DNA of 64,000 nucleotides from NCBI GenBank assembly GCA_026014745.1, contig JAOZHS010000002.1, positions 124,001 to 188,000 on the forward strand, given 5' to 3'. Made by a program: the position numbers and the translations under genes. This DNA is from Candidatus Bathyarchaeota archaeon. Lineage in GTDB: Archaea > Thermoproteota > Bathyarchaeia > Bathyarchaeales > Bathycorpusculaceae. This document shows positions 10,713 to 27,882 of the stretch, in pieces. The notes beneath the pieces are model-generated. The model did no database searches and had not been told where the DNA came from. It saw only the letters and a program-made list of their open reading frames with translations. Position 1 is the stretch's first letter. Every line of letters starts with the position of its first letter.

Positions 10713-11446
10713 CGCCTCATACTATCGGTGAGTGGCATTTTTACCTTTGCGGTAAAAAACTGTGTATCCAGCGGTTTCTTAAGTACTGATTTTTAACATG
10801 TTACTGGGGAGTTTTTTGGTCAATACCGGCCTACCCCTCTTAGGAGTGCAAGGTTATTTTTAGTGACCTATAAGGGTGGGGAAGAAAGCTATTTAGGGGG
10901 ATGTGTATTGGGTTTAGGGTTGAGCATTGGGGTGAGACTGTTCCTACTCAGCGATGTCTCTTTCTCATCACTTTCTCCGATGCTGGGAAGTAAGGCATGC
11001 TTCACAGGCGCTCTTCACCCCACAAAATATCTCAACTAGCAATATTTAAGACTTGGGTTATTGTACACGGTTCAATTTCGGTATTGGACGTGTGGAGAAA
11101 AAAACCAGACTATACATACCCCCACATGCACATGGCGGCGACATTAACATAGACCTATGTTGAGCATGTGGAAGAGTTCGGTTATGCCACACCCAAACAG
11201 ACGCAAAAACACGTCGCAAACCCAAAAAACAACCCAAACCAACAACTAACTTGTGGCAGCCGTAAAACCGCCACACCCACACAAAGAGAAAAAACCAAAA
11301 AAGAAATACTGCCAAAAAAGAGAACCGGTACCGCCCATCAAAAAGAGGCACCCAACAAAATTTACCACACAGTCCATTCGACGCATAAGGAAGGGGTGGG
11401 AAATGATTAATAAGACAGAAGTAGACAGTTTTCTATCCCAACACGC
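10713..11446. other. 734-bp gap between methyltransferase and tRNA-Leu
   Basis: No convincing protein gene. The left part carries a structured element (10929-11024, listed separately) preceded by a TATA-like CTATTTAG at 10889-10896. The segment 11100-11440 is C/A-rich on the plus strand and contains short inverted repeats, such as ACATAG-AC-CTATGT around 11148-11161 and a TGTGGC/GCCACA pair around 11250-11275. An 80-codon reading frame here (11168-11410) has simple, Lys/Thr/Pro-rich content and no ribosome binding site, so it is not called. A TATA-like GATTAATAAG at 11404-11413 suits the tRNA. Confidence 0.4.
10929..11024 (+). ncRNA. Candidate small structured RNA (H/ACA-like hairpin)
   Basis: The 5' arm GGGGTGAGA (10929-10937) pairs with TCTTCACCCC (11012-11021) with one bulged T, enclosing about 75 nt with a partial inner stem (CAGC/GCTG). 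The trinucleotide ACA follows the stem directly at 11022-11024, as in archaeal H/ACA guide RNAs. A TATA-like box with a purine-rich BRE-like stretch sits about 30-40 nt upstream. I could not define the guide pockets or a kink-turn with confidence, and the hairpin is longer than most single H/ACA units. It could also be an unrelated structured RNA. Confidence 0.3.
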
Positions 11447-11571
11447 GCTACGGTAACCAAGCCAGGTCAAAGGTGAAGGACTCAAGATCAACGTTTGGCC
11501 GGCAGGTCTGGCCCCACGGATGGGAAATCCTTTCCCGCAGGGGTTCGCAGGTTCGAATCCTGCCCGTAGCA
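11447..11571 (+). tRNA. tRNA-Leu (anticodon CAA) with intron
   Basis: The acceptor strand GCTACGG (11447-11453) pairs with CCGTAGC (11564-11570); discriminator A at 11571; no CCA is encoded. The D-arm closes with ACC/GGT. The anticodon stem AAGGA/TCCTT frames the loop CTCAAGA (11481-11487), anticodon CAA. About 40 nt (roughly 11488-11527) interrupt the sequence just 3' of the anticodon loop, the usual archaeal intron position processed through a bulge-helix-bulge. A long CCC-GCA-GGGG variable arm confirms a Leu-type class II tRNA. The T-arm GCAGG-TTCGAAT-CCTGC is intact and forms the left end of element E1. Confidence 0.92.
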
Positions 11572-11572
11572 C
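11547..11572 (+). repeat. att left copy of E1 (inside tRNA-Leu)
   Basis: A 26-bp sequence covering the T-arm and 3' acceptor strand of tRNA-Leu plus one base. It is identical to 18367-18392, and the bases on both sides differ between the copies, so the repeat limits are sharp. It restores a complete tRNA at the left junction. Confidence 0.9.
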
Positions 11573-11639
11573 TTTTACCGCTACCTGCCCCACTTTTAAC
11601 ATAGAACTCTTAACGGACATCCTGAAAGTGGAGCAGCAC

Positions 11640-12488
11640 ATGAGAGCCAACGGCAACGCTGAAAGCACGATCGAAAGCACCATTAGGCGTTTGAAATTTT
11701 TAGGCAAAAATACAAACTTGGGAATACCGCAAATCTGCAAAGATTACATAACAAATTACAACGCAAGCAACGCATACAAAGAAGGCTTAGCAATGGCATA
11801 CAACCGTTATGCAGTATGCTTTAAGCTGAAATGGGAAATACCATATTTTCAAAAAGAGGAAAGATTGCCAAATGTTCCAAGTGTAGAAGAAGCCAACATA
11901 ATCATATCATCATTTAGCAGAAAATGGGCAACAATATTCACTATACTAAAAGAAACAGGACTAAGACCAATAGAGTTACACAGAACCTCTCTCAAAAACA
12001 TAGACTTAGAAAAAGGAACAATAAACGCAAAATCGTGCAAAAGAGGAAACGCAAGAATCCTAAAAATTACAGATTCAACCTTAGCAATGCTCAGAACATA
12101 CATCACAGAAAACAAAAGCAAAAACCTATTTCCAAAACCACACGACCAATGTAAAATATGGACTTTAGGAAGAAACCGCACAGCAAAAAAACTAAACAGA
12201 CCCGAACTAATCAAATACAGACTATACGACCTAAGACACCACTTCGCAACAATGCTATACCATAAGACCAAAGATATTTTATTGGTAAAACAGCAACTCG
12301 GACACAAAAAAATAGAGCATACCCTAATCTACACACACCTATTCAACTTCAAAACAGACGAATACATCTCAAGAACTGTGCAACTCGGAACACCAACAAC
12401 CCTAAAAGAAATATGCGAACTCGCAGAAGCTGGCTTTACCAAATTCACTGAAATCGAAGGCTACCAAATATTTAAAAAGCCAAAATAG
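11640..12488 (+). CDS. int: Tyrosine recombinase / integrase of element E1
   Basis: About 282 residues from the ATG at 11640, with GGAG six bases upstream (11630-11633). The open frame runs back through the tRNA to 11520, but translation of the T-arm (GSNPARS) is clearly not original coding. An N-terminal SAM-like core-binding segment precedes the catalytic domain: first Arg in TGLRPIELH, then YDLRHHFAT (the usual HxxR box with Tyr instead of the first His), then LGHKKIEHT and nucleophile Tyr in IYTHL. Expected to recombine the plasmid attP with the tRNA-Leu 3' end. Placement directly beside the att site is typical. Confidence 0.9.
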   Translation: MRANGNAESTIESTIRRLKFLGKNTNLGIPQICKDYITNYNASNAYKEGLAMAYNRYAVCFKLKWEIPYFQKEERLPNVPSVEEANIIISSFSRKWATIFTILKETGLRPIELHRTSLKNIDLEKGTINAKSCKRGNARILKITDSTLAMLRTYITENKSKNLFPKPHDQCKIWTLGRNRTAKKLNRPELIKYRLYDLRHHFATMLYHKTKDILLVKQQLGHKKIEHTLIYTHLFNFKTDEYISRTVQLGTPTTLKEICELAEAGFTKFTEIEGYQIFKKPK

Positions 12489-12569
12489 TTGTGTAGCCAT
12501 CATAAAAGGCACCTATAAGAGAGTAAATTGCGAAAAAATTAATAGTACCTGTAATTAGTAACTTTTCTT

Positions 12570-13337
12570 GTGCCTTACAAACAAAATAGAAAAGTTACTA
12601 GTATTGCTCAAATTATCGATAAATTATCAGAGGATTTAGAAAATCAGGGCAAAATTGTCTGGTATAGAGGTCAATCGGATAAAAAATGGTCGCTTACTCC
12701 ATCAATTTATAGAAACAATGTAAAACAAGACCTCAGCGAAATGCATTTATTAAAACATTTCAAACAGGATGCTATTTCGTTATTCAATAGAAACAACAAT
12801 AATATGCAGCCACATGAATGGTTGTTTATTATGCGACATTATGGGGTGCCAACGCGCCTTCTAGATTGGACCGAGAGCGCGCTAGTGGCAACTCACTTCG
12901 CAACAGAGCAAGAAGAAGTTGATGGCTCATTATGGATGTTATTTCCAAAAAAATTGAATCAACAAGATGGAAGGCACTTCTCCAACGTTGAAACGAGTCT
13001 GCCGTCTTTCGAAGAAGATACTGAAGTTATGCGCGATTATGAACCTAGAGAGGCTCTCGAAAAACAGAGGAAACTTGACATTAACCCTATCGCGTTTATA
13101 TGCCCACGAAATATTCCTCGCATGAGAGCGCAGAGAAGCGTTTACACCATCCACCATATCAAAAGTACCCCCATAGAGGAAATAGGTGATAAATCACATG
13201 TTTGGAGGTACATTATTCCAAAGGAGTCAAAAGCCAAAATAAGACGTGAGCTAGCAATTTTAGGATTCAGTGATTTCCAGATTTTTCCCGAAGCCAAATT
13301 TATCGGTCAAAAGTTGCAAAAAGAGTGTGAAAAATGA
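12570..13337 (+). CDS. FRG-domain protein
   Basis: 255 residues. WYRGQSDKKWSLTPSIYR lies at about 31-48 and MRHYGVPTRLLDWTESALVATHFAT at about 89-113; these are the two conserved blocks of the FRG domain, named for its F/Y-R-G motif. FRG proteins are frequent in bacterial and archaeal mobile elements and are suspected of roles in phage defence, but their biochemical activity is not settled. It starts at GTG 12570 with no clear ribosome binding site. Its stop overlaps the next gene's start by four bases, so the two are co-translated. Strongly A-rich, like the rest of E1. Confidence 0.85.
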   Translation: MPYKQNRKVTSIAQIIDKLSEDLENQGKIVWYRGQSDKKWSLTPSIYRNNVKQDLSEMHLLKHFKQDAISLFNRNNNNMQPHEWLFIMRHYGVPTRLLDWTESALVATHFATEQEEVDGSLWMLFPKKLNQQDGRHFSNVETSLPSFEEDTEVMRDYEPREALEKQRKLDINPIAFICPRNIPRMRAQRSVYTIHHIKSTPIEEIGDKSHVWRYIIPKESKAKIRRELAILGFSDFQIFPEAKFIGQKLQKECEK

Positions 13338-14428
13338 GCCTGAAAACTTACGCTATGCAAAACAATGCGATTTTGGGTTTAAATCTTATTACCGACCAGA
13401 TCGAATTTACCCCGACTTATCAGCGAAATAGCGATGTTTGGGATAAAGAAAAAAGGCAATTATTCATTGACTCAATATTGAATCATTTTGATATTCCAAA
13501 AATATATTTCCATGACATAAGTGCTCAACATCGAAAACTTCCAAACGGGAAGGAACTAAAATACGCAATTATCGATGGAAAACAAAGGATGGAGACTATC
13601 CTTCAATTTATGGCTGACAGTTTCCCTCTCGCAGACGATTTCGTTTACTATGAAGAACCCAAAATCAAACCTTTAGGTTTGACGTATTCTGAAATAGCCA
13701 AGAAATATCCAGAAATCAAAACAAGATTTGATTGCTATACATTACCCATAATTATTGTTGAAACTGATGATACTGAACTCATCGATGAAATGTTTTCTCG
13801 GTTGAACGAAGCGGTAGCACTAAGTTCTGCTGAGAAGAGAAACGCTTTAGGTGGTCCAATACCGAAATTCATTAATGAGCTTGCAGGCCACCCCTTCTTT
13901 ACAAGTAAAGTTAATTTTTCAAACAAGCGATATCAGCATAAAGAAACTGCTGCTAAGCTACTATTCCTTGAAGATACTATTTATTACCAAAGGAGAATAA
14001 TCGATACCAAGAGAGCATTTCTTGATGCGTTTGTAAAAGAGTATAAAAGAAGACAAGTTAGAGCTCAACAAAAAATAGTAGCTAAAGACCCAAAAATATT
14101 ACTTGATGCAGTCAGGGATAGGCTAGATAGACTTGACAAAGTGTTTCTAAATAAAGACCCATTACTCAGCCAGCAAGGCATCGTTATTATTTACTACCTG
14201 CTCATGAGGAAAGCCGATAAATGTCATAATTCTGAAATAATAACACGAGACAAGCTGGAGAACTTCAACCTCTTAGTATTTAATAACAAAATTGTGGCTG
14301 AACATGAGATCAGTGAGGCTGACTTTGACTACCTTGAATTCGACAGATTATCAATGCAAGGTTCAAATGATGCTAATTCAATAAAGGAAAGGCTTAGAAT
14401 AATAAGTTCATTTTTTGGACTTGAGTAG
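13334..14428 (+). CDS. DUF262 (GmrSD-N / ParB-like nuclease fold) protein
   Basis: 364 residues. Diagnostic DUF262 blocks are FTPTYQRNSDVWDKEKRQLFIDSIL near 27-50, YAIIDGKQRMETILQF near 75-90 (the D-G-x-Q-R signature), and MFSRLNEAVALSSAEKRNALGG near 153-175. DUF262 is the N-terminal NTP-dependent domain of GmrS/GmrSD type IV restriction enzymes and of other defence proteins. The usual C-terminal HNH (DUF1524) nuclease is absent; the last 150 residues are helical with no motif I recognise. ATGA overlap with the FRG gene argues that the two act together. Confidence 0.85.
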   Translation: MSLKTYAMQNNAILGLNLITDQIEFTPTYQRNSDVWDKEKRQLFIDSILNHFDIPKIYFHDISAQHRKLPNGKELKYAIIDGKQRMETILQFMADSFPLADDFVYYEEPKIKPLGLTYSEIAKKYPEIKTRFDCYTLPIIIVETDDTELIDEMFSRLNEAVALSSAEKRNALGGPIPKFINELAGHPFFTSKVNFSNKRYQHKETAAKLLFLEDTIYYQRRIIDTKRAFLDAFVKEYKRRQVRAQQKIVAKDPKILLDAVRDRLDRLDKVFLNKDPLLSQQGIVIIYYLLMRKADKCHNSEIITRDKLENFNLLVFNNKIVAEHEISEADFDYLEFDRLSMQGSNDANSIKERLRIISSFFGLE

Positions 14429-14587
14429 GGACATTAGCTCAGTTCCAATCGCTTCGCTTGCGCATGCGCGCTCGCTCCGCTCTTGCCGTGCATCACGCAA
14501 AAGCCAAACGATACGCCAAAAAAAGAAAACCGCAGAAAAGTTCAGCCTAACCGTAAAAAGGGGAATAAAAATAGCCGTATCAAACAG

Positions 14588-14944
14588 TCATCGTTGACTA
14601 TTCATAGATTGTTGAAAAGGCAAACCAGACGAAACCTTAACGTAAGGAATCAACGGCAGATTAGGGTAACGCTTCTGGACATCAAGGACTTTCTCGGCAG
14701 CTTTACGAATCTTTTTGTAGTCACCAGAAGTAACAGACATCGTAGTTAAGTCACCCTTCAAATCTATCACTTCAACCTCGTAGAGTTTGCTTGGTTTACC
14801 ATTATAAGTGCTGTCCACAGGCTTTGGACGCTTCAAAACAATGAAAACCAACTCATTCTTAGGAAGGAAATTCTTCTCGCCCTCAAGCAGTGAACCGAAC
14901 TCTTCAACACTCGCATCTAGGCTTTTAGCATCTTTAACGCTCAT
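14588..14944 (-). CDS. Hypothetical E1 protein, third gene of the rep operon
   Basis: 118 residues; not recognised. The middle (ELVFIVLKRPKPVDSTYNGKPSKLYEVEVIDLKGDLTTMSVTSGD) reads as alternating beta strands, compatible with an OB-like or small beta-barrel fold, followed by a helix and a conserved-looking NLPLIPYVKV. It sits immediately downstream of the 95-residue gene with no gap, in one operon with the replication initiator. A single-stranded DNA-binding or replication accessory role is a guess from position only. Confidence 0.6.
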   Translation of the reverse strand: MSVKDAKSLDASVEEFGSLLEGEKNFLPKNELVFIVLKRPKPVDSTYNGKPSKLYEVEVIDLKGDLTTMSVTSGDYKKIRKAAEKVLDVQKRYPNLPLIPYVKVSSGLPFQQSMNSQR

Positions 14945-15232
14945 TCAAATTTCACCTCCCCTCTCCCGTAGTTCATTAGGTGAGCAAAATTCAATCTCAA
15001 TTTCTAAATCAGCGCAGAAATGAAACTCTAAGAAATCCTGATAACAAACAGGCAAGACAGCTTTAGAGTAGTAGAACCGTTTAACCAAAAAAGTATGCCT
15101 AAATGCACCCTTCTTAAACGTCAACTCAAGAACAGGCGAATAAACATCATAATGAATAACCACCTCTAAATGAGTAAGTGAAAACACTTTCTCGCCCAGA
15201 CAGTGAGCGTTGGAGAGGGAACACTCATTCAT
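14945..15232 (-). CDS. Hypothetical E1 protein, second gene of the rep operon
   Basis: 95 residues, not recognised. It is rich in aromatic residues and beta strands (VVIHYDVYSPVLELTFKKGAFRHTFLVKRFYY) with four Cys, but no clear zinc motif. Its start overlaps the end of the HUH Rep gene by eight bases, so it is translationally coupled to rep. Found here only as part of the three-gene rep operon on the minus strand. Confidence 0.6.
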   Translation of the reverse strand: MNECSLSNAHCLGEKVFSLTHLEVVIHYDVYSPVLELTFKKGAFRHTFLVKRFYYSKAVLPVCYQDFLEFHFCADLEIEIEFCSPNELRERGGEI

Positions 15233-16175
15233 AGTGACCCCTCACTTTGGGCGCTTCAATCCACTTTACATTCCCGCCGCTATCATACAAGTCATCCTCA
15301 TATTCCTCTACCCACCATTGAGCATCCAAGGGGTCGCCTAAACCAACGTACTTAACGGGAACTAAGTCGTGACCGCAGATAGGGCAGACATGCTTTTTCT
15401 TACGTTCCCCCGCTACAAGCTTATGTTTAGTATAAGCCATAACGCCAACCCATGAGCCAACGTGAGAACGAATCTTACCGTAAACTATGGTCGCATGGTT
15501 TAGCTGATAGTAGGCAGTTCCAAAAACGGTCTTACGAGCACCCTTAACCTTAACGATATAGCCATCCGTCAAGTTTAAGCGTCGCGTTAGACCTTCAAAG
15601 CCCGAGCAATTCCAGCATTCCAGCTTTGACTTTTTGCAGCGCCGACACGCACCATAACCGCCGTCTAAGAAGCCTAAAAAGTGGAAATGGGGCGCATAGA
15701 ACCAATGTGCAGACTCACCGAAATATGTCTCGTTAGCTCTATGGTAGCGTTGGGCATGAAAAATCATAAAGCCCCCCAGAAAACCACGGTCTTTAGCAGC
15801 CTTTAGCGCTTTGACTTTGAGTTTATCGTAGGGCAAGCCATAGTCTGACACAGGACAAGAAACTATAATGTGCTCAGGGCAACCGAATTTGACGTAGAAG
15901 GGCTTAAACTGCTGCTCTACCCTGTCGGCTTGCTTGATTGCCCAACGCCTAAAACAAACTGGACACTCGGGACGGTCACAACTATGATAAACTCGTCTGA
16001 TGAAAACCTTGCCAGCATGGTTAACGCCGTCCAGAGTCATTAAACGGTGTAAATCCTCACGCAGACAGCCGACATGACCCATGAATTGACCGCACTTATC
16101 ATCCTTCTGTTTACCGTCACCAACACGGAGGTAACCGAGTTTTTGCATGAACTCAATTTCAGCAACAGCCGTCAA
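15225..16175 (-). CDS. rep: HUH-type rolling-circle replication initiator (Rep)
   Basis: 316 residues, TTG start with GGGAG about ten bases upstream. A Cys cluster CDRPECPVCFRRW (near 66-78) is followed by the HUH metal site in APHFHFLGF (near 173-180), then a zinc pair CRRCKKSKLECWNC and another CPICGHD near the C-terminus. Candidate nucleophile tyrosines are in AYYQLNHATI (near 225) and VMAYTKHK. This order matches rolling-circle Rep proteins of archaeal plasmids and pleolipovirus-like elements, which nick one strand at the double-strand origin. The first gene of a three-gene operon. The 118-bp divergent gap upstream is a candidate origin. Confidence 0.8.
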   Translation of the reverse strand: MTAVAEIEFMQKLGYLRVGDGKQKDDKCGQFMGHVGCLREDLHRLMTLDGVNHAGKVFIRRVYHSCDRPECPVCFRRWAIKQADRVEQQFKPFYVKFGCPEHIIVSCPVSDYGLPYDKLKVKALKAAKDRGFLGGFMIFHAQRYHRANETYFGESAHWFYAPHFHFLGFLDGGYGACRRCKKSKLECWNCSGFEGLTRRLNLTDGYIVKVKGARKTVFGTAYYQLNHATIVYGKIRSHVGSWVGVMAYTKHKLVAGERKKKHVCPICGHDLVPVKYVGLGDPLDAQWWVEEYEDDLYDSGGNVKWIEAPKVRGHYE

Positions 16176-16293
16176 TTTTCACAAGCTCCCATTTGTTATT
16201 CATATAGAACTCCACGCAAGCGTTAACCCGAAAGCGATATAAAGAAATTAATGAAACCTTTTACATTAAAAATGAAACTAATTAGGTGGGGTT

Positions 16294-17292
16294 ATGCAAG
16301 CAGAAGGCATAGATAAAGAAGCCATCAATAAGATTACAAAACTCGCATCAATACGGGAAAAAGCATTTTTCACAATTATGCGTCAATCAGGATTAAACCC
16401 AAAAATGCTAATGCAACTCAAAATCAAAGACATAGAACAAGGCATGCCCATACCTTGTAAAATAAGCTTACCTAACGAACTAAGAAAGGACAAACGCCAA
16501 AAATATCCAATCTTCGTAGGAAAAGAAGCCGTAACCTACCTAAACCAATACTTAAAGACCAGAAATAACTTAACCTCTGAAAGCTTACTTTTTTCAAGCC
16601 ATAATAACCCTGAAAAAGAAATCAACACCAAAGACGTAAGCAGAACCTTCAAACGAATAATAACCAAAAAAATAATCCCCACTTTAACAAACAAAGCTGA
16701 GAAAGATAAACTAAACAAGCTAACGTTATATGACCTGATTAATTTTTATAAAGAAAATACCAAGTCTTATGTTAAAACTCTGAAAAATACCGAAGGGTTT
16801 GAGACTGAGACTTTTTTCAAAACGATGTATAACGAGAAAGCATTACCCTTTTTGGAAATTCAAGAAGAGATTACAATAGAGGTCAGATACAATAAAAAAA
16901 GGCTCCAAAAAGAAATCAGAGAACTACATGCACAAAACAAATCAATGAAACAAACAATTGCAAGAGATTCCGATTTTATAAGTGAAATCCTAACTCTTCT
17001 CTACAATAATAAGGGTGACCCAGAGACACGCGAAAACGAAGACATAGGCGATGACTTTATCGCGCTTTGGAAAGAGACAAGTAACAAACAGTGGAATCTA
17101 CCCACTTATGTGGGTTTTCACATGCCTTTTGAATGGTTAGATATAGTTGAAGAATTGACAAAAACACTTAAACAAATCAAAAAACCTTACGACGAATTTG
17201 AAGCCAAACATGGAATTAATTTAGATAAAGCTTTACAAGAGTTAGAGCCGAGCGAGAGGCAAGCAATTGAGGGGAAAATGCGGTTAGATTGA
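16294..17292 (+). CDS. Catalytically degenerate tyrosine-recombinase-like protein with coiled coil
   Basis: 332 residues, ATG with a GGTGGGG element just before it. The N-terminal ~150 residues follow the recombinase catalytic fold: FFTIMRQSGLNPKMLMQLKIKDIEQG aligns with the usual SGLRxSELLxLxxxDI, but the catalytic Arg is Asn. The later box (LTLYDLINFYKEN) has lost the HxxR residues, and no LGH...Y motif follows. Residues ~185-230 are predicted coiled coil (KKRLQKEIRELHAQNKSMKQ). It is divergent from rep. Probably a DNA-binding regulator or structural protein derived from an integrase rather than an active enzyme. Confidence 0.65.
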   Translation: MQAEGIDKEAINKITKLASIREKAFFTIMRQSGLNPKMLMQLKIKDIEQGMPIPCKISLPNELRKDKRQKYPIFVGKEAVTYLNQYLKTRNNLTSESLLFSSHNNPEKEINTKDVSRTFKRIITKKIIPTLTNKAEKDKLNKLTLYDLINFYKENTKSYVKTLKNTEGFETETFFKTMYNEKALPFLEIQEEITIEVRYNKKRLQKEIRELHAQNKSMKQTIARDSDFISEILTLLYNNKGDPETRENEDIGDDFIALWKETSNKQWNLPTYVGFHMPFEWLDIVEELTKTLKQIKKPYDEFEAKHGINLDKALQELEPSERQAIEGKMRLD

Positions 17293-17443
17293 CTCAAAGC
17301 AAACAGTGTATGCATATCGCTAAGGGGAATCGAACAAAGTATTTAGGAATCACGCCACCGCAGACATCAACCGCAAGGGTTGAGTCTCGCACCCCAATGA
17401 CGAAACCTCTACACAGTAACAGCCAAAATCCATTCGTTAGTTA

Positions 17444-17459
17444 GTCAAGAAACCTTGAC
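17444..17459. promoter_or_regulatory. Palindrome GTCAAG-N4-CTTGAC upstream of a surface-protein gene
   Basis: The site reads GTCAAGAAACCTTGAC: 6-bp perfect inverted arms around four bases. It lies about 30 bp upstream of the TATA-like box (17489-17496) of the gene starting at 17520. The same palindrome occurs at 47223, 47903 and, with one mismatch, 47938, all between genes. Spacing and symmetry fit a dimeric transcription factor. Confidence 0.55.
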
Positions 17460-17488
17460 AGGGCTTAGTAGATGTGTAGACAAGAATG

Positions 17489-17496
17489 CTTTTAAC
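17489..17496 (+). promoter_or_regulatory. TATA-like box of the E1 surface-protein gene
   Basis: The sequence GCTTTTAACC has its centre 27 bp upstream of the ATG at 17520, which would give a leaderless or nearly leaderless transcript. No ribosome binding site precedes the ATG, which agrees with this. Assigned by position and sequence only. Confidence 0.45.
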
Positions 17497-17519
17497 CCCA
17501 CTACCTCGTAATACTAAAT

Positions 17520-18290
17520 ATGGCTAATACTGGCAAAAGACACGCACTAACCCTAACCATAATTATCACATTTTCATGTTTCACCCTGTATGCCGCTAAC
17601 CCTGCTAATGCTCAATCGATTCCTAAGCCTTCTGTGCCAGAATTTACTTTGAAATATGTCGATAATTCCTATGATGTCCCATCGACCTATAGCACAGACC
17701 CATACACTGGAAGAAATGTGCTTACTCAAACAGGTTATCACGTAGAAAACAAATCCATAGAAGTAATAATAAAAAATCAACCCTTCAACTCTTATCGTAA
17801 TGTAAATAACTCCCTTGTAGAATTGCATTATTATATATTCGCTAAGGGACATTTCCAAGATTGGAGTGACGTTCCAAGTCCTGACAGCCGTGTCGATCGC
17901 TCTAACGGAGAATATACAGTCGTAACCTATGGCTTAGGTGGAAACAACGGTTCTGACATTTATAACCATCAATTGGGCGAGGTTTCTGATGGGGGCAAGA
18001 TAGATTTTATAGTTCAAGCACTAACAGGCTATAGTACTCGAATTCAAAGAAGCCTCTATGAGAGCCAATTTGGTGAACATTATTACTGGGTTTTTACTGT
18101 TGTTGAAACAAGCGATTGGAGCAACGCACAAACAATAAGCATACCTGATGGGGTGGTTTCTTACTCTGCACCCAACCCATCTCCAACCGTTCCAGAGTTT
18201 CCCTTTGTCGTAGTCTTATCCTTGTTTGCAGTTATACCTCTGATTGCGACCTTTTTAAAGAAGAGGATTGGTCTAAAAGCTTATAACTAG
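17520..18290 (+). CDS. Secreted surface protein with C-terminal VPEFP membrane tail
   Basis: 256 residues. An N-terminal signal peptide (TLTIIITFSCFTLYAANPANA) precedes a beta-rich ectodomain, beginning VPEFTLKYVDNSYDVPSTY and containing VIIKNQPFNSY and SDWSNAQTISIP. The protein ends with TVPEFPFVVVLSLFAVIPLIATFLKKR, a PEF-type motif plus transmembrane helix and basic end. Such tails are common on surface proteins of these archaea and resemble archaeosortase sorting signals. A homologue lies at 35419-36126. Last gene of E1, next to the right att copy, so probably cargo. A palindromic operator and TATA box precede it. Confidence 0.8.
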   Translation: MANTGKRHALTLTIIITFSCFTLYAANPANAQSIPKPSVPEFTLKYVDNSYDVPSTYSTDPYTGRNVLTQTGYHVENKSIEVIIKNQPFNSYRNVNNSLVELHYYIFAKGHFQDWSDVPSPDSRVDRSNGEYTVVTYGLGGNNGSDIYNHQLGEVSDGGKIDFIVQALTGYSTRIQRSLYESQFGEHYYWVFTVVETSDWSNAQTISIPDGVVSYSAPNPSPTVPEFPFVVVLSLFAVIPLIATFLKKRIGLKAYN

Positions 18291-18366
18291 AAACCAACAA
18301 TAACACAAATCGGTTTGGACTATGAGCATAAAGATAAGAGAACCCACCAAAACAGTAAGCCGTAAG

Positions 18367-18392
18367 GCAGGTTCGAATCCTGCCCGTAGCAC
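18367..18392 (+). repeat. att right copy of E1 (duplicated tRNA-Leu 3' end)
   Basis: An exact 26-bp copy of 11547-11572. It marks the right end of E1. The DNA directly to its right encodes, on the minus strand, the C-terminus of another integrase that reads through this repeat. E1 therefore appears to have inserted beside an older integration. Confidence 0.9.
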
Positions 18393-18868
18393 CATTCCCG
18401 ATGAGCATTTGTACTGTCCGCTGTTTGGCGGATCAACTTCACTAACTCCTCAGTCAGCACGCCTACTTGGTGATCTTCAATATTTTGCTCGGTTATGTTG
18501 CCTCTGGTTAATGCTTCTCGTGTTAGTAGCTGCTCGGGGTTTTCGCCTAATGCCCGTATCATTTCTTTTATGGTGTCGATTTTGCTGATGGCTGTCTTTT
18601 TGCGTATTGCTAAGCCTGCTGCGGCGTAGATGGTGCGTAGTTTGTCGATGCCGAGGCTTTGGATGTCGTGGTAGGTGTCTACTGTGTGGCCCATAAAGTA
18701 GTCAGCGTAGTCTTCTTGAACGCCTAGTGCGATTAGTTGGGTTTTGAAGTATTTACGTATACTATGGACGCGGAGGTCGTACATTGCGCCTGTTTTGTTG
18801 GGTTTTATGAAGCCTGCTTTGACGTAGAGTTCGTGTACGAAGCCTAAACACGATATTATCGCAAACAC
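18393..18868 (-). pseudogene. Integrase remnant, C-terminal catalytic half only
   Basis: The frame encodes ELYVKAGFIK...YDLRVHSIRKYFKTQL, then DYADYFMGHTVDTYHDIQSLGIDKLRTIYAAAGL. These are the HxxR box (HSIRKYF), the GH motif and the C-terminal Tyr region of archaeal tyrosine integrases. The core-binding domain and the first catalytic Arg are missing; upstream of about 18840 the frame no longer resembles an integrase. At its 3' end the frame continues through the att repeat. The gene faces the att site. A non-functional leftover of an element older than E1. Confidence 0.75.
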
Positions 18869-19177
18869 GACATTTGCCTGTATCCCAAATATACGGGGCT
18901 ATGCGATAGAGCTGATGTCTAGCTGACATCGAGGCACCATGTAGCTGAAGAGTCGCGTGCAAGCAGAGATTCAGAACCATTTATTTTTTGCTATTTTACT
19001 CTTTGATGTATCTTAATTGGATCCTGATGTTGAATACAAAAAATAGTTTTTTGTTTGCCTCACAAAAGAGACTTTTGATCAGCGTACTCACTGGTCTTCC
19101 TGTTCCGTATGGCGTACCAAATGTCAGGCAAAAGTTCGGGTTAACAGCGATTTTCTTTTGTGGACAACAGCTACCTG

Positions 19178-20338
19178 TTATATTGACGGAAATCTTCGCC
19201 TCAAATAGCCCTGTACAAAGTCATGGTCATTTGCTAATTCAGTGCTTTTCACAATTTGACCCTCAAGCCTATCTAATGCAATCTTAAACGTCTGTTCAAC
19301 CCCATAGCCTTCACCTGAACTGAAAAACGCACCCTTCTTTGTTCTAAACTGCAGGCGACAATGAATTAACTGATCACCCTTGAAGTTAGTGCCATGCGTC
19401 TTCATGTAAACAAACAACGTGCCCGCCTCTAAGGTTCCTCCGTATCTGTGAGTGAAAGAGTCGAAGTCATCCATAACTGCGCCTCGCTGGATTTCATCAA
19501 TTTCCACGCCTTTTACTGAAAACTCCACGGTAAGCCTTTCCACTGGTTTTTCCATTTGCGCGAGCGGCTCAAGAAAGTCACGTTTAGTTATGATGCCGAC
19601 GGGTCTTCCCTTGCTGACGATCACCAAAGAGGAAATGTTGAATTTGTGCATCTGCTCCTCAGCATCTCGCAACTTGGATTCAGGCAAAACAGTGACTACA
19701 GGCTGAACCATAATGCCCGTCGCAGGAATACTCAGAGCAGAAACCTTCTGACCTACCCTTTCGCCAAACCTTTGCACATGTTTGGGCTGAAAAATATTAT
19801 CAATAATATCGGATAGGCTCACAATTCCCACGAGTTTTCCCTCTTTGACTATGGGAACATGCGAGATTCCCTCACTTCTTAAAAGGCTTAATACTGCCCC
19901 TAATGATTCGTCTTCTTCGATGACAAACGGCTTCTTGGTCATTATTTCTTCAACATGCGTGTTGCCCCATTGATCCATTATAGCGCCATGAATAACATCC
20001 TCGTCGGTTACAAAACCTACGAGCTTATTTTCACTGTAGACTGGAAGTTGCCTGATTTCGCTCTGGATCATTAACTTAGCAACCTTGCTAAGAGTATCCT
20101 GTAGAGTAACGGCAGGCGCTGACTGCGTCAAAGTTTTAACTTTGGTTCCAGATGCATCTAAACTTGACCGTTTTATCGATTTTTGGGAAATAATCCCTTT
20201 GTAACTGCCTTTATCATCGAAGACTGCTAAAACAGGCGGCATCCCTTCTTTAAAACGTGATAAACAAGAAGAAAGCGTATCATTTTCCTGTACTTGTATG
20301 AAACCCTTTGAAAAAACATCTTCCACAATTTTAACCAT
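19178..20338 (-). CDS. Four-CBS protein with C-terminal HPF/RaiA-like ribosome-binding domain
   Basis: 386 residues. Two CBS pairs (Bateman modules) occupy about residues 5-125 and 130-265, recognisable by repeats such as RQLPVYSENKLVGFVTDEDV, SHVPIVKEGKLVGIVSLSDI and SLVIVSKGRPVGIITKRDF. The last ~115 residues (LTVEFSVKGVEID...THGTNFKGDQLIHCRLQF...ALDRLEGQIVK) follow the beta-alpha-beta-alpha pattern of the S30AE/HPF hibernation fold. CBS pairs bind adenine nucleotides, so the fusion suggests ribosome inactivation gated by energy charge. That role is inference from domain content. It is convergent with nothing evident; the thermosome gene is upstream on the same strand. Confidence 0.75.
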   Translation of the reverse strand: MVKIVEDVFSKGFIQVQENDTLSSCLSRFKEGMPPVLAVFDDKGSYKGIISQKSIKRSSLDASGTKVKTLTQSAPAVTLQDTLSKVAKLMIQSEIRQLPVYSENKLVGFVTDEDVIHGAIMDQWGNTHVEEIMTKKPFVIEEDESLGAVLSLLRSEGISHVPIVKEGKLVGIVSLSDIIDNIFQPKHVQRFGERVGQKVSALSIPATGIMVQPVVTVLPESKLRDAEEQMHKFNISSLVIVSKGRPVGIITKRDFLEPLAQMEKPVERLTVEFSVKGVEIDEIQRGAVMDDFDSFTHRYGGTLEAGTLFVYMKTHGTNFKGDQLIHCRLQFRTKKGAFFSSGEGYGVEQTFKIALDRLEGQIVKSTELANDHDFVQGYLRRRFPSI

Positions 20339-20442
20339 AAAAACACTTCAGCACTGTTATTTATTATCCTTGAGTAATCTAAGCTTAAGAGACTTAGGGC
20401 ACACTCTTACATTAGTTTCTTAACAAAATTAAAGGGAGAAAA

Positions 20443-22083
20443 TTATTCTCCGCCCATGCCACCAGGCATTCCGCCGGGGCCGCCTCTGGGGGATTTAGCT
20501 GTTATAATGTCGTCTACGCGTAGGATCATGGCTGCTGATTCCGCTGCTGATTTGATGGCTTGCTCTTTGACGACTATGGGTTCGATGACGCCGTTATCGA
20601 TGCTGTTTTGGAGTTTACCAGTGAATATGTTGATGCCCATGTATTTGCCGTCTTCTTTGTCATGTACTTGACGTAGCTCTATGAGTGTGTCAATTGATTC
20701 TAAGCCGCCGTTCTCTGCAAGCGTGCGTGGAATGACTTCGACTGCGTCAGCAAAGGCTTCCACGGCGAGTTGTTGTCTTCCGCCAATTTTGGTAGAGTAA
20801 TTGCGTAGTTCTTTGGCGATTTCGATTTCGATGGCTCCGCCGCCAGCGACTATTTTGTTATTTTCCGTAACGTCTGAAATTACTGATAACGCATCGGTTA
20901 TGACTCTTTCAGCTTCATCAACCATTCGCTCAAGCCCTGCTCTTATGAGGATAGCTACGCTATGAGGATCCTTGCATTTTTCGACGAAAATCATTTTGTC
21001 ATCGCCAATCTTGCGCTCCTCCACGAGACCCGCAAAACCTAAGTCTGCCGCCTTTAAATCATTCAAATTAGAGCTCACTCGCCCTCCTGTAGCTCTCGCG
21101 AGTTTCTCCATGTCGGATTCTTTCACGCGGCGTGCTGCCAGGATACCTTCTTTTGAGAGAAAGTGTTGTACCATGTCGTCGATGCCTTTTTGGCAGAACA
21201 CAACGTTTGCGCCTGAAGCTTTAATCTTGGTCACCATCTCTTTGAGTGTGCTATCCTCCTGGTCTAAGAAAGCTTTCATCTGGTTTGGTTCATGAATGCG
21301 TATTTCCGCAGTTATTTCGGTTTTTTCAATTTCTAGCGCTATATCTAAAAGGGCGATTTTTGCGTTTTCTATCTTTTTGGGCATTCCCGAATTAATGACT
21401 TCTTTGTCCACGATTATGCCTCTGACGAGTTGTGTCTCGATGAGGCTTTTTCCCGTCTTTTTCACCAGTTGTATGTTATCTATGTCGGCTATCGTCTGGT
21501 CTGCGGCCTTCTGGGTCACTTGTTTTACCGCTTCTAGGGCTATTTCTGCAAAGTGCTCTTTAGCACCACCCACAGCTTTGCTTCCCATAGCGGTCAAAGC
21601 GACTTTCAGCATCATTTTTTGATCCTCTACGTCAATGGGTACCGCGTTTTTTGCAATTATCTCGATTGCTTTCTGTGCTGCTTTACGGTATCCTGCGACA
21701 AGTATCATTGGGTGAACGTTTTGGTCTAGGAGCTGTTCGGCTTTTTTGAGCAATTCACTGGCTAACACTACAACGGTTGTTGTGCCGTCGCCCACCATGT
21801 CATCTTGAGTTTTGGCGATTTCAATCATCATTTTCGCGGCCGGGTGCTCCACATCCATTTCCTTAAGAATTGTGGCGCCGTCGTTGGTTATGGTGATATC
21901 GCCTAAGCTGTCAATCAGCATTTTATCCATGCCCCGCGGGCCCAGAGTGGTTTTAAGCACTTCACCGATGACTTGGGCGGCCATAATGTTGTTTCGTTGG
22001 GCTTCTTTGCCCCTACTTCTGGTGGTTCCTTCCTTTAGGATGAGGACCGGTTGACCACTTTGGGTTTGTGTTAAATATGCCAT
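20443..22083 (-). CDS. ths: Thermosome subunit (group II chaperonin)
   Basis: 546 residues, full length. Hallmarks are [31 protein letters not shown] near 48-78, the ATPase motif [11 protein letters not shown] near 98, and the C-terminal [13 protein letters not shown] tail typical of archaeal subunits. It forms the double-ring ATP-dependent folding machine. ATG at 22083 with TTGAGGA about ten bases upstream. Which paralogue (alpha, beta or gamma) cannot be told without a tree. Lies between the integrase remnant and the radical SAM gene in a region with several integration scars. Confidence 0.96.
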
Positions 22084-22535
22084 ATTATTCTATCCTCAAT
22101 ATTATGTTCAAATAATATTCTTTAGCATCGTCAGCGTTTTAGGAATTCACGGGGCTCTCCCCTATCTATGAGTCATGCCGAAGAAGACGGGTTTGACCTG
22201 CAAGAGACTGAAGGCTTGATACTTTCAACTGTTAAAGAACCGCTGACTTTGTAAGTTATATATTGTCATACAGGGATTTAAACACGTTTAGAGAACAAGC
22301 GAGTACTAAGGTATTCACCATTATTGCTCTATTGGTTAATACCTAACTATTTGTGCCTCAAATTCCATATGTATTACTCGAAAAGAACTTGCAAAAAGAC
22401 TGAAGCGTTTCAGTAACATTAAGTAATAGTGTGCTGTTTAACGTGAGCATAGGCAATTAGGGAATAAGGGCGCCGCCATAGAAGAAGCTTAATGTTTTAT
22501 GGCAGCACCAATTTTCAGAGTTGAAAGGGATTAAC
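22084..22535. other. 450-bp gap upstream of the thermosome gene
   Basis: Divergent promoter region. Near the thermosome start, minus-strand AATATTATTTGAAC and ATAATATT could serve as TATA elements. On the plus strand a 28-codon frame (22168-22254: ATGAGTCATGCC... ending in Leu-Thr-Leu-stop) has coding-like content, but no ribosome binding site or homology I recognise. The remainder (22260-22500) is AT-rich with no clear gene or RNA structure. Confidence 0.3.
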
Positions 22536-22892
22536 TTGACAAAAACTGATGATATTTTATTGGAGTTGAATAGAACAGTCGCTAGGTATCTGCTGGGAGT
22601 TCGCCCGTTTCAATACAAGAAAAAGACATATCATTTAATCGACAATTACGTTGCAGTACCTTACATGAAGTGTGATGTGTGTGGGAATTATCCGACATAC
22701 GAGGTTTCCGTTATTGAAAGCAAAGAGGGCACGACGCTACGCGTGGGAAACGATTGTATTGATAATTTGACAGGACAAAACGTTTCAGAATGGTTTAAAA
22801 GTTTCAGAAGAAAACGCGAAAGCATCATGACAAACAGAAAATACACTGACCAGCTACCACAAGAACAGGAACAAATAGCGGTTGCTACCTGA
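22536..22892 (+). CDS. Small zinc-binding protein (CxxC...NDC)
   Basis: 118 residues from TTG 22536, chosen because AAAGGGA sits six bases upstream; an in-frame TTG at 22521 lacks one. The core is MKCDVCGNYPTYEVSVIESKEGTTLRVGNDCIDNLTG, a Cys-x2-Cys pair on a beta hairpin with a later Cys in GNDC, likely one zinc site. A helical N-terminus (LLELNRTVARYLLGVRPF) and Gln/Arg-rich C-terminus flank it. Not assigned to a family; such proteins are frequent in archaeal mobile elements. Isolated on the plus strand. Confidence 0.6.
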   Translation: MTKTDDILLELNRTVARYLLGVRPFQYKKKTYHLIDNYVAVPYMKCDVCGNYPTYEVSVIESKEGTTLRVGNDCIDNLTGQNVSEWFKSFRRKRESIMTNRKYTDQLPQEQEQIAVAT

Positions 22893-22999
22893 GCATAAGC
22901 GCCACGCATCACAGCTTAAGAGCTCGGCACAATAGACGTTTATTTAAAACGCTGTTGAATTTTGGGCAGTCAATTGTTTGTACGCTAACCATTCAAAAA

Positions 23000-23926
23000 T
23001 TAAATGTTTACTCGAAAGGCCCAATTCATGTAAGCGCTAATATCTCTCGAAAGCACCAGTGAAGGCTCAACGTAACAGTGAAGGCTGCATTTTTGGCAGC
23101 TACCTATTTTTTTCCAATCAAAAGCTGAAACGCCATCTTTAACGCCTTTTTTAAAGACCGAGACACTGCTCGCGTAGTCGTTGTGGACATAGCAAGGCAA
23201 AACCAAGTTTCCATGGGGGTCAATATTTATCATTGCCCAAGGCTTGCATTGCCAGTTTTTCTCTTTAGCCAGAACTTTTAGATAACCAATTGAGTTAACA
23301 ATGGGATAACCTTGCCGCTTCATTTCAATAAGCCTACGCGCCATTTTCGGTACCTTATCAATAGCAGCTGAGGATGCATTAGCATTGCAGTATTCATGTG
23401 CGACGGCTACGGAGATTTTTGTACCCAACGCTCGCGCTAACTCCACCAAACTTTCCGTTTCACCGATGTTCTCCGCCATCACAGTGGTGTTGATGGTTAC
23501 TGAAACTTTTTCTTTCGCCGCCTCTATGCCTTGCACTGCTTTTCTAAAGCTTCCACTGACCCCTCGGATAGCATCATGAGTTTTCTCCAACCCATCCAAG
23601 GAAACATAGACGACACCATTAAGGTACTTGGCTATCTCGCCTATTTTGGCTTCAAGCAGCGTACCATTGGTTATCAAACTTGTATGCAAAGGCAGAGACC
23701 GGGAAAAAGCAAGAATATCCACCAAATCACGCCTAAGCAACGGTTCCCCACCTTCAAATGCTACCCCAACGGCGCCTGAATTGTATATCTGTTTCAGAAC
23801 GGCTTTCGTTTGCGGTAAGCTTGGATCGGGGCTGGGTCTTTTCCAGAAAGGGCACATTTTGCAGCGAAGGTTGCAATTGTAAGTAAGCTTGTGCCCACAA
23901 AAGAAAGGAACCTTTGCACCAAGCAT
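23000..23926 (-). CDS. Radical SAM enzyme with SPASM-like C-terminus
   Basis: 308 residues from ATG 23926. The cluster motif CNLRCKMC (Cys-x3-Cys-x2-Cys) is near residues 18-25, followed by GGEPLLRRDL and LITNGT, which contact SAM. The C-terminus has CKPWAMINIDPHGNLVLPCY and CQKCSLHCYV, a Cys-rich region that may hold an extra cluster as in SPASM proteins. The substrate cannot be inferred. The same frame remains open 40 codons upstream, with a plausible family-like stretch (YCGSCKQVF...EPLWLGIRVYRVLISN), but it has no ATG, GTG or TTG, so the true start is uncertain. Confidence 0.85.
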   Translation of the reverse strand: MLGAKVPFFCGHKLTYNCNLRCKMCPFWKRPSPDPSLPQTKAVLKQIYNSGAVGVAFEGGEPLLRRDLVDILAFSRSLPLHTSLITNGTLLEAKIGEIAKYLNGVVYVSLDGLEKTHDAIRGVSGSFRKAVQGIEAAKEKVSVTINTTVMAENIGETESLVELARALGTKISVAVAHEYCNANASSAAIDKVPKMARRLIEMKRQGYPIVNSIGYLKVLAKEKNWQCKPWAMINIDPHGNLVLPCYVHNDYASSVSVFKKGVKDGVSAFDWKKIGSCQKCSLHCYVEPSLVLSRDISAYMNWAFRVNI

Positions 23927-24053
23927 GTTTGAGATTAAGACACGGTAAACTCGAATTCCTAGCCAGAGGGGTTCTACATATTGGCGAATGGTTTTTTCGT
24001 CTACAGAATAATTAAAAACCTGCTTACAACTCCCACAATAAATGAAGGGTGCA

Positions 24054-24362
24054 CTAACTTTTTAGTTCTCTATCTTCACTGTAGTCTCGGTCCTCATGAA
24101 CTTCTTCCTCAGCCGAATCTTGCCTTTCTTGTTCACGCACGCTTTCAGCTTCTCCTTTGGCTTTTGCTATATCTTCGGCTTGACCTTTTTGTGGATAAAA
24201 AGTATCCAACCAAACTTCAAACTGTCCCTTATAATCGGCATTGGAAAAAGCCCAATCACATAATCCATTGATAACTTTGCCCATATCAATGTCGTGTTCT
24301 TCGGATAGACCCTTCAAAAATTCGCCCCACTTTGCAGATAACGTTATTGAGAAACTAACCAT
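24054..24362 (-). CDS. Small protein with ribbon-helix-helix-like N-terminus
   Basis: 102 residues. The start MVSFSITLSAKWGEFLKGLSEEHDIDMGKVINGLCDWAF has the strand-helix-helix pattern of small archaeal DNA-binding or coupling proteins. The second half is a highly charged Glu/Arg/Lys coil (EDIAKAKGEAESVREQERQDSAEEEVHED). Function unknown. It ends just where the open frame leading into the radical SAM gene begins. Confidence 0.55.
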   Translation of the reverse strand: MVSFSITLSAKWGEFLKGLSEEHDIDMGKVINGLCDWAFSNADYKGQFEVWLDTFYPQKGQAEDIAKAKGEAESVREQERQDSAEEEVHEDRDYSEDRELKS

Positions 24363-24445
24363 AAAATCTCCAACTCCTTATTAGGGCTAACCTATATTTT
24401 AAGTTTCGACGCCCTTGAACCCATATTGCCACCAAATATTGCGTT

Positions 24446-26500
24446 TTAATTAAAAAGAACACTAAACGGGGGATATTTTTTCAGTTCGGGCGCTTCAGGG
24501 CATAAGACAAAAGCCGAAAGAGCGGGCAAATAAAGGCTAAGCATATTTTTTTGGTTATTGTCGGAAGCAGTAAAGTGTGTCTGTGTTGGTAATAACCGAC
24601 CGTATCCGCCGTACTTTGGTGCATCACTGTCAAGTATCATGTGATATTTTCCAGGGGACGCTTCAAATCGGTAGTCACTGAAGGATTGCGAAGGATTGAA
24701 ATTGAAGACAAAAATCAGATTGGCTCTTTTGAAGATTAGTATTTTTTTCTGGGAGTCTTCATGAAGGAGTTGAGGGGTACTTGTTTCAAGCAGGTGTTTT
24801 GTCTTAGCTACTGCAATCATGTCTTGGTCAAATTGGGTTAGAAAATGGTACTTCAGGTGAACATCGTCTTCTAGATGCCATTGGCGATAAGCATGCTTAA
24901 AAGACCAGTTATTTCCAGCGCGGGGAAAATCTATCCAGTCGGGGTGACCGAATTCATTGCCCATAAAGCTCAGATAACCCTGACCAGCGGTAGCTAATGT
25001 TATTAAACGGATCATCTTATGCAGCGCTACCCCTTGGGCAACCTTAAAGTTGTCATCATCGACCCACATATGATTATACATGTCTTCACCGATTAGTCGA
25101 AAAATAAGAGTTTGATCGCCCACTAACGCTTGGTCGTGGGATTCAACGTAACTAATTGTTTTCTCGCCCCTTCGGTGGTTGTTAAGTTCAAACCAAAGAT
25201 GACCAATAGGCCAGTCTTCCGTCTTGTAATCTTTTACTAGACGAATCCAGTAATCAGGCACCCCCATTGCAAAACGATAGTCAAAACCGAACCCGCCATC
25301 TGACTGTGAAACCGCTAGGCCCGGCATACCGCTGACATCTTCGGCTATAGTGACAGCATCTGGTCGAATATCATGAATTACCCGATTGGCTAGAGCCAAA
25401 TAGGTCAAGGAATCTTCGTCCACAAAACCATCGAAATAGTCGTTGTATGAAGTAAACTCCCTCTTTAGACCGTGGTCTAAATAAAGCATGCTGGTGACAC
25501 CGTCGAATCTAAAGCCGTCAAAGTGGAATTCGTCAAGCCAGTAGCGGCAATTGGACAACAAAAAATGCAAAACCTGCGGCTTGTGGTAATCAAAGAGCCG
25601 TGTATCCCATGCACTGTGTTTTCCACGTGATCCTTCATGAAAATACTGAAAGAACGTCCCGTCGAAACGGCCTAGTCCTTCCACCTCGTTGGACACGGAA
25701 TGGGAATGAATTAGATCCATCAGAACGGTGAGGCCTTGAGCGTGGGCTGTGTCGATTAAAAGTTTTAGGTCCTCGGGGGTTCCGTACCGCGATGAAGGCG
25801 CAAAAAAACTCGACACTTGATATCCAAATGAGCCATAGTATGGATGCTCTTGAATCGCCATCAACTGTAGAGTATTGTACCCACCTTTGGTGACTCGTGG
25901 AAGGATATTGCGCGTAAATTCTTGGAATGAACCGATTTTTTCTTCTTCTTGGGCCATGCCAACATGGGCTTCATAGATTAAGGGAGCTTCTTTGGGTCGT
26001 TTGAAACTGGTTTTCCAATGATAAGGTTCGGGGGGCATCCATACTTGAGCGTTAAAGATCAGGGTTTTTTGATCCTGTACCACCCGTCGAGTGTAAGCTG
26101 GAATACGATCGCCTTCACCTCCTGGCCAATAAACACGGAGTCGATAAAGGTCACCATGCGCCAGTTTATCAGTAGTTAGGTGAATTTCCCAAACTCCGTA
26201 GTCAGTGATTTTTTTAAGCTTAAATTCTTCGCGCTCTTGCCAGTTACTTAAATCTCCGATCAAATAAATGGCTGTAGCGTTTTGCGCCCATTCACGAAAA
26301 ACCCATTCGTCATTTTGGAGATGCAAACCAAAGTATTCGTGCCCGGAGGCAAACCCTGTAAGGCTAATTTTACTCTGAGTGAGGCGGTGCTCGGTTTGAT
26401 CTATATTCTCCAATCGGTGCTTAATTTGATTCAAAAACGGCGCGAGGTATGAGTCTATTGTCAGCAGTCGGCGAAGGCGGGTTTCAGTTTCGCTAATCAA
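24446..26500 (-). CDS. glgB: 1,4-alpha-glucan (glycogen) branching enzyme, eukaryote-like GH13_8 type
   Basis: 684 residues. An N-terminal CBM48-like domain (residues ~45-140) leads into the GH13 barrel. Nucleophile Asp is in FRFDGVTSMLY (~331), acid/base Glu in TIAEDVSGMP (~386) and the third Asp in YVESHDQ (~454). A C-terminal beta domain closes the chain. The segment DGFRFDGVTSMLYLDHGL is the pattern of eukaryotic-type branching enzymes rather than the common bacterial GlgB or archaeal GH57 enzymes, which suggests transfer. It makes alpha-1,6 branches in glycogen. No other glycogen gene is adjacent. Confidence 0.92.
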   Translation of the reverse strand: MISETETRLRRLLTIDSYLAPFLNQIKHRLENIDQTEHRLTQSKISLTGFASGHEYFGLHLQNDEWVFREWAQNATAIYLIGDLSNWQEREEFKLKKITDYGVWEIHLTTDKLAHGDLYRLRVYWPGGEGDRIPAYTRRVVQDQKTLIFNAQVWMPPEPYHWKTSFKRPKEAPLIYEAHVGMAQEEEKIGSFQEFTRNILPRVTKGGYNTLQLMAIQEHPYYGSFGYQVSSFFAPSSRYGTPEDLKLLIDTAHAQGLTVLMDLIHSHSVSNEVEGLGRFDGTFFQYFHEGSRGKHSAWDTRLFDYHKPQVLHFLLSNCRYWLDEFHFDGFRFDGVTSMLYLDHGLKREFTSYNDYFDGFVDEDSLTYLALANRVIHDIRPDAVTIAEDVSGMPGLAVSQSDGGFGFDYRFAMGVPDYWIRLVKDYKTEDWPIGHLWFELNNHRRGEKTISYVESHDQALVGDQTLIFRLIGEDMYNHMWVDDDNFKVAQGVALHKMIRLITLATAGQGYLSFMGNEFGHPDWIDFPRAGNNWSFKHAYRQWHLEDDVHLKYHFLTQFDQDMIAVAKTKHLLETSTPQLLHEDSQKKILIFKRANLIFVFNFNPSQSFSDYRFEASPGKYHMILDSDAPKYGGYGRLLPTQTHFTASDNNQKNMLSLYLPALSAFVLCPEAPELKKYPPFSVLFN

Positions 26501-26656
26501 GACACCTCTTTCTGCTTTACGGCCCTTTTTTAAACAAGTTAAGAATACTCCACACTATACCTAAGACCTAACCAGAAAGTCTCTTTATATCAATGCGCCC
26601 ATTTAGGGTGGTTTTAGCCCGAGACACCATATTTTTCATCGTTTAAGAGCTTTCCA

Positions 26657-27262: not shown

Positions 27263-27395
27263 TGCATACTTTGTGTTTTCAAGAAAACTCTTTCCTGATA
27301 TTGAATCATTGAGCGTCAGGTTGAAACGTGTTTGTTTTTGGCTATTGATTATTTGTTTGAAGTTTTCGATTCTTTTTCACATAAATGAAATGGAT

Positions 27396-27547: not shown

Positions 27548-27716
27548 GTCTTTCAGCTCGGGTGTTAATTACATACTACACATGTTATAAACCGGGGGGA
27601 CCGCGACTACTTGTTCCTTACGCAATCTTGCCATGCGTTGAGGCTAGTCGGCTTCCCCTAATACCTTTCTTCGTTAGAAAGGGCACTAAAATGCAGTTAG
27701 TGTGAATTGTTGGCGC

Positions 27717-27860: not shown

Positions 27861-27882
27861 AGTTCATCTTCGGCTTGTTTTT

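Follow-up and report, generated by a model that had tools for sequence, protein, structure and literature searches.

An integrated element in a tRNA-Leu gene of Bathyarchaeia belongs to a plasmid-like family with an HUH Rep, a variable cargo slot and, in most members, an integrase gene split by integration

Archaeal integrated elements encoding a rolling-circle Rep have precedents. NitAQ6f-E2, likened here to the present element by its description, is likewise small and integrated in an archaeal genome, and encodes an integrase together with an SNJ1-type rolling-circle Rep (PMC6563490). It is thaumarchaeal, hence from another phylum, is one element in its survey, and neither a cargo slot nor a turnover of defence genes is described for it. 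Rep-Arvir proteins of SNJ2 and other archaeal elements (PMC13107129) are similarly rolling-circle initiators of integrating elements, and an operon is rebuilt there by excision, as predicted for the present case; unlike the Rep described below, they have a Rep_trans-like fold and are not HUH proteins. Conserved transfer modules associated with changing defence cargo are found in bacterial defence-carrying elements such as Tn7-like transposons (PMC8649781). In contrast to these, the present element is archaeal, 4-8 kb in size in its family, and carries its cargo between an integrase and an HUH Rep. The suicidal integrases of SSV, pTN3 and pT26-2 have attP inside the integrase gene, which is split by integration, and carry PF16795; pNOB8-type integrases feature the signature R...YxxR...Y, and their gene stays whole on integration (PMC8371274). 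A review of archaeal recombinases links split integrase genes to PF16795 integrases and to a single origin (PMC8371274). Viruses of Bathyarchaeia have been described (PMC10848311), and no paper combining Bathyarchaeota, plasmid and rolling-circle replication was found in the literature searched.

The window denotes here the whole stretch of 64,000 nucleotides analysed; it comes from contig 2 of an uncultured sediment archaeon whose genome measures 2.7 Mb in three contigs. The window hosts an integrated element of 6,820 bp, bounded by exact 26-bp direct repeats derived from the 3' end of a tRNA-Leu(CAA) gene (Table 1). The element is genuine and complete, and represents an undescribed plasmid-like family. 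The family is organized as att, integrase, cargo slot, small genes and HUH Rep facing the integrase, divergent regulator, right arm and att. We favour, with a probability of about three in four, the reading of an integrated plasmid from a Bathyarchaeia family built on one common plan, with a predicted rolling-circle form, a silenced integrase and protective cargo. The excised circle would replicate by rolling circle, the Rep nicking DNA with Tyr223, perhaps at a hairpin in the right arm. Integration would switch the integrase off and fix the element in place until integrase is provided in trans or made from an internal start, and the cargo of the window, an FRG-DUF262 pair, would shield the host, and hence the element, from viruses or competing elements. 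Silencing after integration, rolling-circle replication and antiviral activity are what we infer from the sequence. Within the literature searched we found no precedent for a family spanning the class, for its cargo slot or for a split integrase of pNOB8-like type. It is suggested tentatively, at slightly less than even odds, that small archaeal rolling-circle integrative plasmids found across the class ferry interchangeable immune systems, such as the bacterial-type FRG-DUF262, between genera, and that an integrase of the pNOB8 sort independently evolved self-disarming, losing promoter and start codon on integration.

Table 1. Features of the integrated element and of its target, in window coordinates.
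Feature	Position	Strand	Basis
tRNA-Leu(CAA) gene with intron, integration target, stays whole	11447..11572	+	ARAGORN with introns; homologues
attL, 26 bp	11547..11572	+	exact direct repeat with 18367-18392
Integrase body (PF00589, R...YDLR...Y)	11573..12488	+	Pfam; frame open through attL
FRG-domain protein, cargo slot 1	12570..13337	+	Pfam; PADLOC PDC-S15
DUF262/GmrSD_N protein, cargo slot 1	13334..14428	+	Pfam; PADLOC NsnA / PD-T4-2_A
Small protein, 118 aa	14588..14944	-	88-93% identical in five close elements
Small protein, 95 aa	14945..15232	-	77-92% identical in close elements
Rep, HUH endonuclease (H163-F-H165, Y223, Cys clusters)	15225..16175	-	alignment, profile comparison
Tyrosine-recombinase-like protein without Arg I and C-terminal catalytic third	16294..17292	+	Pfam PF00589
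12-bp hairpin, candidate double-strand origin	17360..17390		six-sequence alignment
Insertion in right arm carrying surface-protein gene	17398..18275		flanking blocks contiguous in relatives
Surface protein, secreted/membrane-anchored, 256 aa	17520..18290	+	translation: hydrophobic N-terminus, C-terminal TM
BRE/TATA-like box, putative integrase promoter	18275..18287	+	right-arm alignment
N-terminal leader of the integrase (15 codons from the ATG, continuing into att)	18322..18392	+	joins body solely in excised circle
attR, 26 bp	18367..18392	+	exact direct repeat with 11547-11572

Features expected of archaeal integrated elements are found, namely a tyrosine integrase (PF00589, E 1.7e-18), direct repeats at a tRNA end and a target site empty in relatives. 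An initial annotation, made from the sequence alone, had described the exact repeats from the tRNA-Leu 3' end, an integrase at one end and a complete mobile element of a Bathyarchaeia-type host. The att repeats, the integrase and the family members bear this out, and among named relatives Candidatus Bathyarchaeota MAGs are the closest. Empty tRNA-Leu sites, for which a search of related genomes had been suggested, are found in several relatives (e.g. L078, L079, L081-L085, L089), in which the left side is syntenic and the right side is syntenic with the window at 36.5-39.8 kb. The arrangement named in that annotation as contrary to its reading, the same genes at this locus in relatives lacking the repeat at 18367, did not occur. 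Genes homologous to the target are present in 69 of the 91 genomes of the same taxonomic family. ARAGORN detects the target gene solely with the intron option, and assigns Ser(CGA) to the copy of the window but Leu(CAA) to its homologues in L027-L029; because of these homologues the latter identity was preferred. The sequence shows that the element entered the tRNA-Leu(CAA) 3' end by site-specific recombination with an attP of 26 bp, the tRNA staying whole. In the relatives L075, L080 and L087 a second copy of the tRNA-Leu 3' end is located 0.6-2.1 kb downstream, and these loci are likely remnants of other small elements at the same site.

Eighteen further att-bounded elements were identified in Bathyarchaeia genomes, at tRNA-Leu, -Ala, -Thr, -Arg and other sites, and the family ranges in size from 3,983 to 7,850 bp. 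Five complete tRNA-Leu elements (that of the window, L025, L027, L028 and L029) have conserved boundary sequence, and two are found at tRNA-Ala (L043 and L044, the latter on contig 3 of the same genome as the window); repeats measure 26-56 bp and elements 5,085-7,600 bp in these two groups. In the twelve elements that are more distant, repeats measure 19-31 bp, and some of these elements are located at tRNA-Ala, -Thr or -Arg. The elements L032, L034 and L036 have one att sequence, CTGGGACGGCRACATCATCCCCC, in common, and no tRNA 3' end was recognised as its target. In loci where both integrase and Rep were found, the two genes converge on the intervening slot. Relatives of Rep occur in 15 of the 91 genomes of the same taxonomic family, five other copies being 91-94% identical, and in 24/257 Bathyarchaeia genomes class-wide. 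Compared to copies from another genus, identity at fourfold degenerate sites is 60-72% for Rep and the 118-aa gene, 49-53% for the integrase, and 25-51% for the host genes flanking the site in relatives. Rep and the small genes are thus closer across genera than host genes, which fits horizontal movement between lineages. The value of the integrase is near the host range, and parts of the core may therefore have different histories. The ends of these elements are defined, their replication protein has a known relative and several integration sites are used, and a vector backbone for a lineage without genetics could be built from the family.

When the window is compared by blast to close elements, slot 1 never aligns. 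The aligned blocks are att and integrase (~11.4-12.49 kb), small genes and Rep (~14.45-16.19 kb) and right arm (17342-17397 and 18276-18394), and part of the recombinase-like gene aligns in two close elements. While Rep is 91-94% identical in close relatives, the slot holds other genes each time. The overlap between the FRG and DUF262 genes of the window is 4 bp. The slot of L025 hosts a complete Hachiman pair, HamA and HamB (PADLOC E 7e-43 and 8.5e-185), that of L028 an OLD-like TOPRIM protein, and that of L029 an NERD nuclease and a membrane protein. DUF5343 and DpnII/MboI-like proteins are found in L043, a methylase, HNH, DUF262 and Ymh proteins in L044, and unknown proteins in L026 and L027. 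Among more distant elements, TIR, DUF4365 and viperin-like proteins are encoded in L041, TIR in L099 and HEPN in L042; L126 and L127 carry almost nothing in the slot, and elsewhere the slot holds a surface protein or pentapeptide repeats, or lacks anything recognisable. These comparisons indicate that the segment between integrase and Rep has been replaced each time, around a core of integrase, two small genes, Rep and right arm that is common to close relatives in two genera. Defence-like cargo amounts, as a plain count, to about seven clear and two weak cases among 27 loci. The notion that every slot carries defence was rejected, as several slots are nearly empty or have no recognisable defence gene. 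A GC-rich stretch at the right edge of the slot is common to the window (14453-14489) and L025 (near 11390-11430), and is a possible recombination point; it was rejected as a hairpin origin, since it folds no better than shuffled sequences.

The FRG-DUF262 pair and its defence-like character, both proposed at the outset, are supported by matches to FRG (E 5.7e-26) and GmrSD_N (DUF262; E 5.8e-16), and by the PADLOC assignments in Table 1. Of the 257 Bathyarchaeia genomes, one contains the FRG protein; the remaining 256 have no relative of it at E 1e-10. A Hymenobacter plasmid carries FRG and then DUF262 in the same order, the latter 35.6% identical to the protein of the window, which makes the pair a two-gene unit common to the archaeal element and bacteria. 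Identity with the type IV restriction enzyme GmrSD was rejected, because the DUF262 protein has the GmrS N-terminal domain alone, and no match to the GmrD part was obtained among element proteins in Pfam. The cargo might instead stabilise the element, as an addiction or toxin module, since the functions of FRG and DUF262 are here predictions and some slots carry unrelated genes; we consider this unlikely, because the slots of relatives hold complete known antiviral systems, such as Hachiman. The variable slot can be regarded as a catalogue of immune genes from archaea.

The HUH Rep with a PHFHFL motif and Cys clusters, and the two overlapping small genes beside it, had been noticed in the initial annotation, and the absence of any HUH match, which did not come about, had been named there as evidence to the contrary. 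In an alignment of 20 members H163-x-H165 and Y223 are invariant and cysteines are shared, and the 118-aa and 95-aa genes are conserved in close elements. Pfam yielded a sub-threshold match to Rep_1 (E 0.0086). A profile built from RepA of the haloarchaeal virus SNJ1 (L133) and three plasmid relatives aligns to the Rep profile by hhalign with probability 98.4, E 8.4e-15 and 21% identity, pairing PHFHFLGF with PHVHLIGA and YQLNHATI with YALSHCAI, so that Cys cluster, PHxH and YxLxH all correspond. SNJ1 RepA was found by profile-profile comparison alone, a direct HMM search with the Rep profile giving no match, and the same profile had no match in a PDB sequence search; nearer relatives of Rep occur in Thaumarchaeota. 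The AlphaFold model of Rep (mean pLDDT 73, parts of the core >90) matches a viral fold library from E 2e-5, two matches being named microvirus replication initiators (E 0.007 and 0.02); against solved structures nothing is significant, with weak ferredoxin-like matches at E>0.1. The model of the 118-aa protein is poor (mean pLDDT 53). By these alignments Rep and the rolling-circle RepA of SNJ1 are homologues. Its role in replication is assigned from family membership, from which we infer rolling-circle replication, and the element probably copies itself as a rolling-circle plasmid. In L043 (9598-10785) and L044 (9112-10536) Rep is interrupted at the same place by an in-frame TAA, with a 93-aa frame downstream, perhaps reflecting two genes or readthrough.

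HUH enzymes act in replication, transposition and mobilisation, and Rep also gives a weak match to Zn_Tnp_IS91 (E 0.7). It might accordingly be a transposase-like HUH protein or a mobilisation relaxase whose main job is transfer; this is improbable, as the ends of the element are integrase att sites and not HUH transposon ends, and a viral replication initiator was identified as its homologue. It is similarly improbable that the element is a provirus or a virus satellite, that is, a small integrated virus genome with cargo excluding rival viruses and packaged by a helper. Kinship of Rep to RepA of SNJ1 would suit such an origin, as would size and cargo, satellites being similarly small and carrying defence genes. 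SNJ1 (Simuloviridae) is, however, a virus with capsid genes, whereas no structural, packaging or capsid family, and no PHROG viral structural match, was found among the element proteins with Pfam and PHROG; moreover, the element has no relative in phage records or IMG/VR. The initial link to pleolipovirus-like genomes is abandoned. A pleolipovirus origin was rejected, as spike or other virion genes are missing in Pfam and PHROG searches and Rep belongs to a different family, resembling RepA of the simulovirus SNJ1.

Against the integrated plasmid that we favour stands that searches of phage, plasmid and IMG/VR collections gave no match, that IMG/VR yielded no attP junction and that no circular form was seen. 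The integrase start is located at the other end of the element. Integrated, the integrase frame of the window is open through attL, with internal start candidates at 11628 (GTG) and 11640 (ATG); in the excised circle it runs back through attP to the ATG in the right arm. As judged from this arrangement, in the circular form the integrase would be read from the right-arm ATG across attP, and insertion would take away both the ATG and the TATA-like box located about 40 bp upstream. Boxes similar to this one are present in L034, L036, L043 and L044. An integrase ATG lies 31-58 bp upstream of att in 12 of the 19 elements (among them the tRNA-Leu, -Ala and -Thr groups and L032), which are not independent and correspond to about four groups of related right arms; the remaining seven have no ATG within 65 bp of att. 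Shuffled right arms yield such an upstream ATG about 7% of the time, frame-slipped arms never within the 31-58 bp interval. In L029 the ATG is at -53, and the gene contains a run of N. In integrated L028, L029, L032, L099 and L124 the left-end integrase frame has no start until 59-80 bp inside, and in L025 the integrase gene is itself broken into two frames.

The integrase shares with the SSV type an att inside the gene and the splitting of the gene on integration; in contrast to that type, only a short leader is cut off here. Membership in the SSV-type suicidal integrases was rejected, because Pfam identifies PF00589, with YxxR, and not PF16795. The signature is that of pNOB8-type integrases, but the gene does not stay intact after integration. 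The integrase thus looks pNOB8-like yet split as in the SSV type, and either the split is a separate case or the link to PF16795 is not strict. It would add a second instance, apparently of independent origin, of integration taking an integrase gene apart. That the element is a dead relic no longer able to excise, its genes kept solely for the use of the cargo to the host, is very improbable: the integrase is cut off from its start and an old degraded integrase adjoins the element, but all genes are open, the 26-bp repeats are identical, and relatives with high Rep identity in another genus indicate movement.

The second recombinase-like protein of the window matches PF00589 with E 4e-7 over profile positions 9-120 of 172, and sits where other elements have a winged-helix protein. 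In it and in similar proteins of L027 (9759-10634) and L028 (8719-9729), Asn or Ser replaces the first catalytic Arg and the catalytic third at the C-terminus is missing; all are encoded divergently from Rep. These truncated proteins are possible regulators.

In the right arm, the 12-bp hairpin pairs in six close elements (100% of cells), four pairs showing two-sided changes, and its covariation score was not reached by any of 500 shuffles; the evidence is moderate, because the six sequences are few and related. The hairpin is a candidate double-strand origin. It was not found in distant elements, being restricted to the close tRNA-Leu group, and for this reason may be instead an att accessory site or a terminator. 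The blocks at 17342-17397 and 18276-18394 are contiguous in L025, L027, L028 and L029. The surface-protein gene counted in the initial annotation among the genes of the element is indeed present, but the contiguity marks it as a separate insertion inside a conserved right arm and not as part of the core. A homologue 36% identical is found in L004/L026.

To the right of attR, about 18 kb (18393-36530) are missing in syntenic relatives between tRNA-Leu and the following genes. An older, degraded integrase with a weak PF16795 match is located just outside attR (18405-18868, minus strand), and att-like copies are found at 31889 and 36530. A locus in a genome of another genus (G058) matches tracts 18841-24435 and 26762-30152 at 96% and 94% identity, and the CBS protein and thermosome show 99% protein identity to those of G058. 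This stretch was rejected as the rest of a larger element of the same family and treated as a separate island, because it contains chromosome-type genes, named from translations as CBS protein, thermosome, branching enzyme and histidine kinase. A protein encoded at 35419-36126, just inside its far end, resembles by eye the surface protein of the element.
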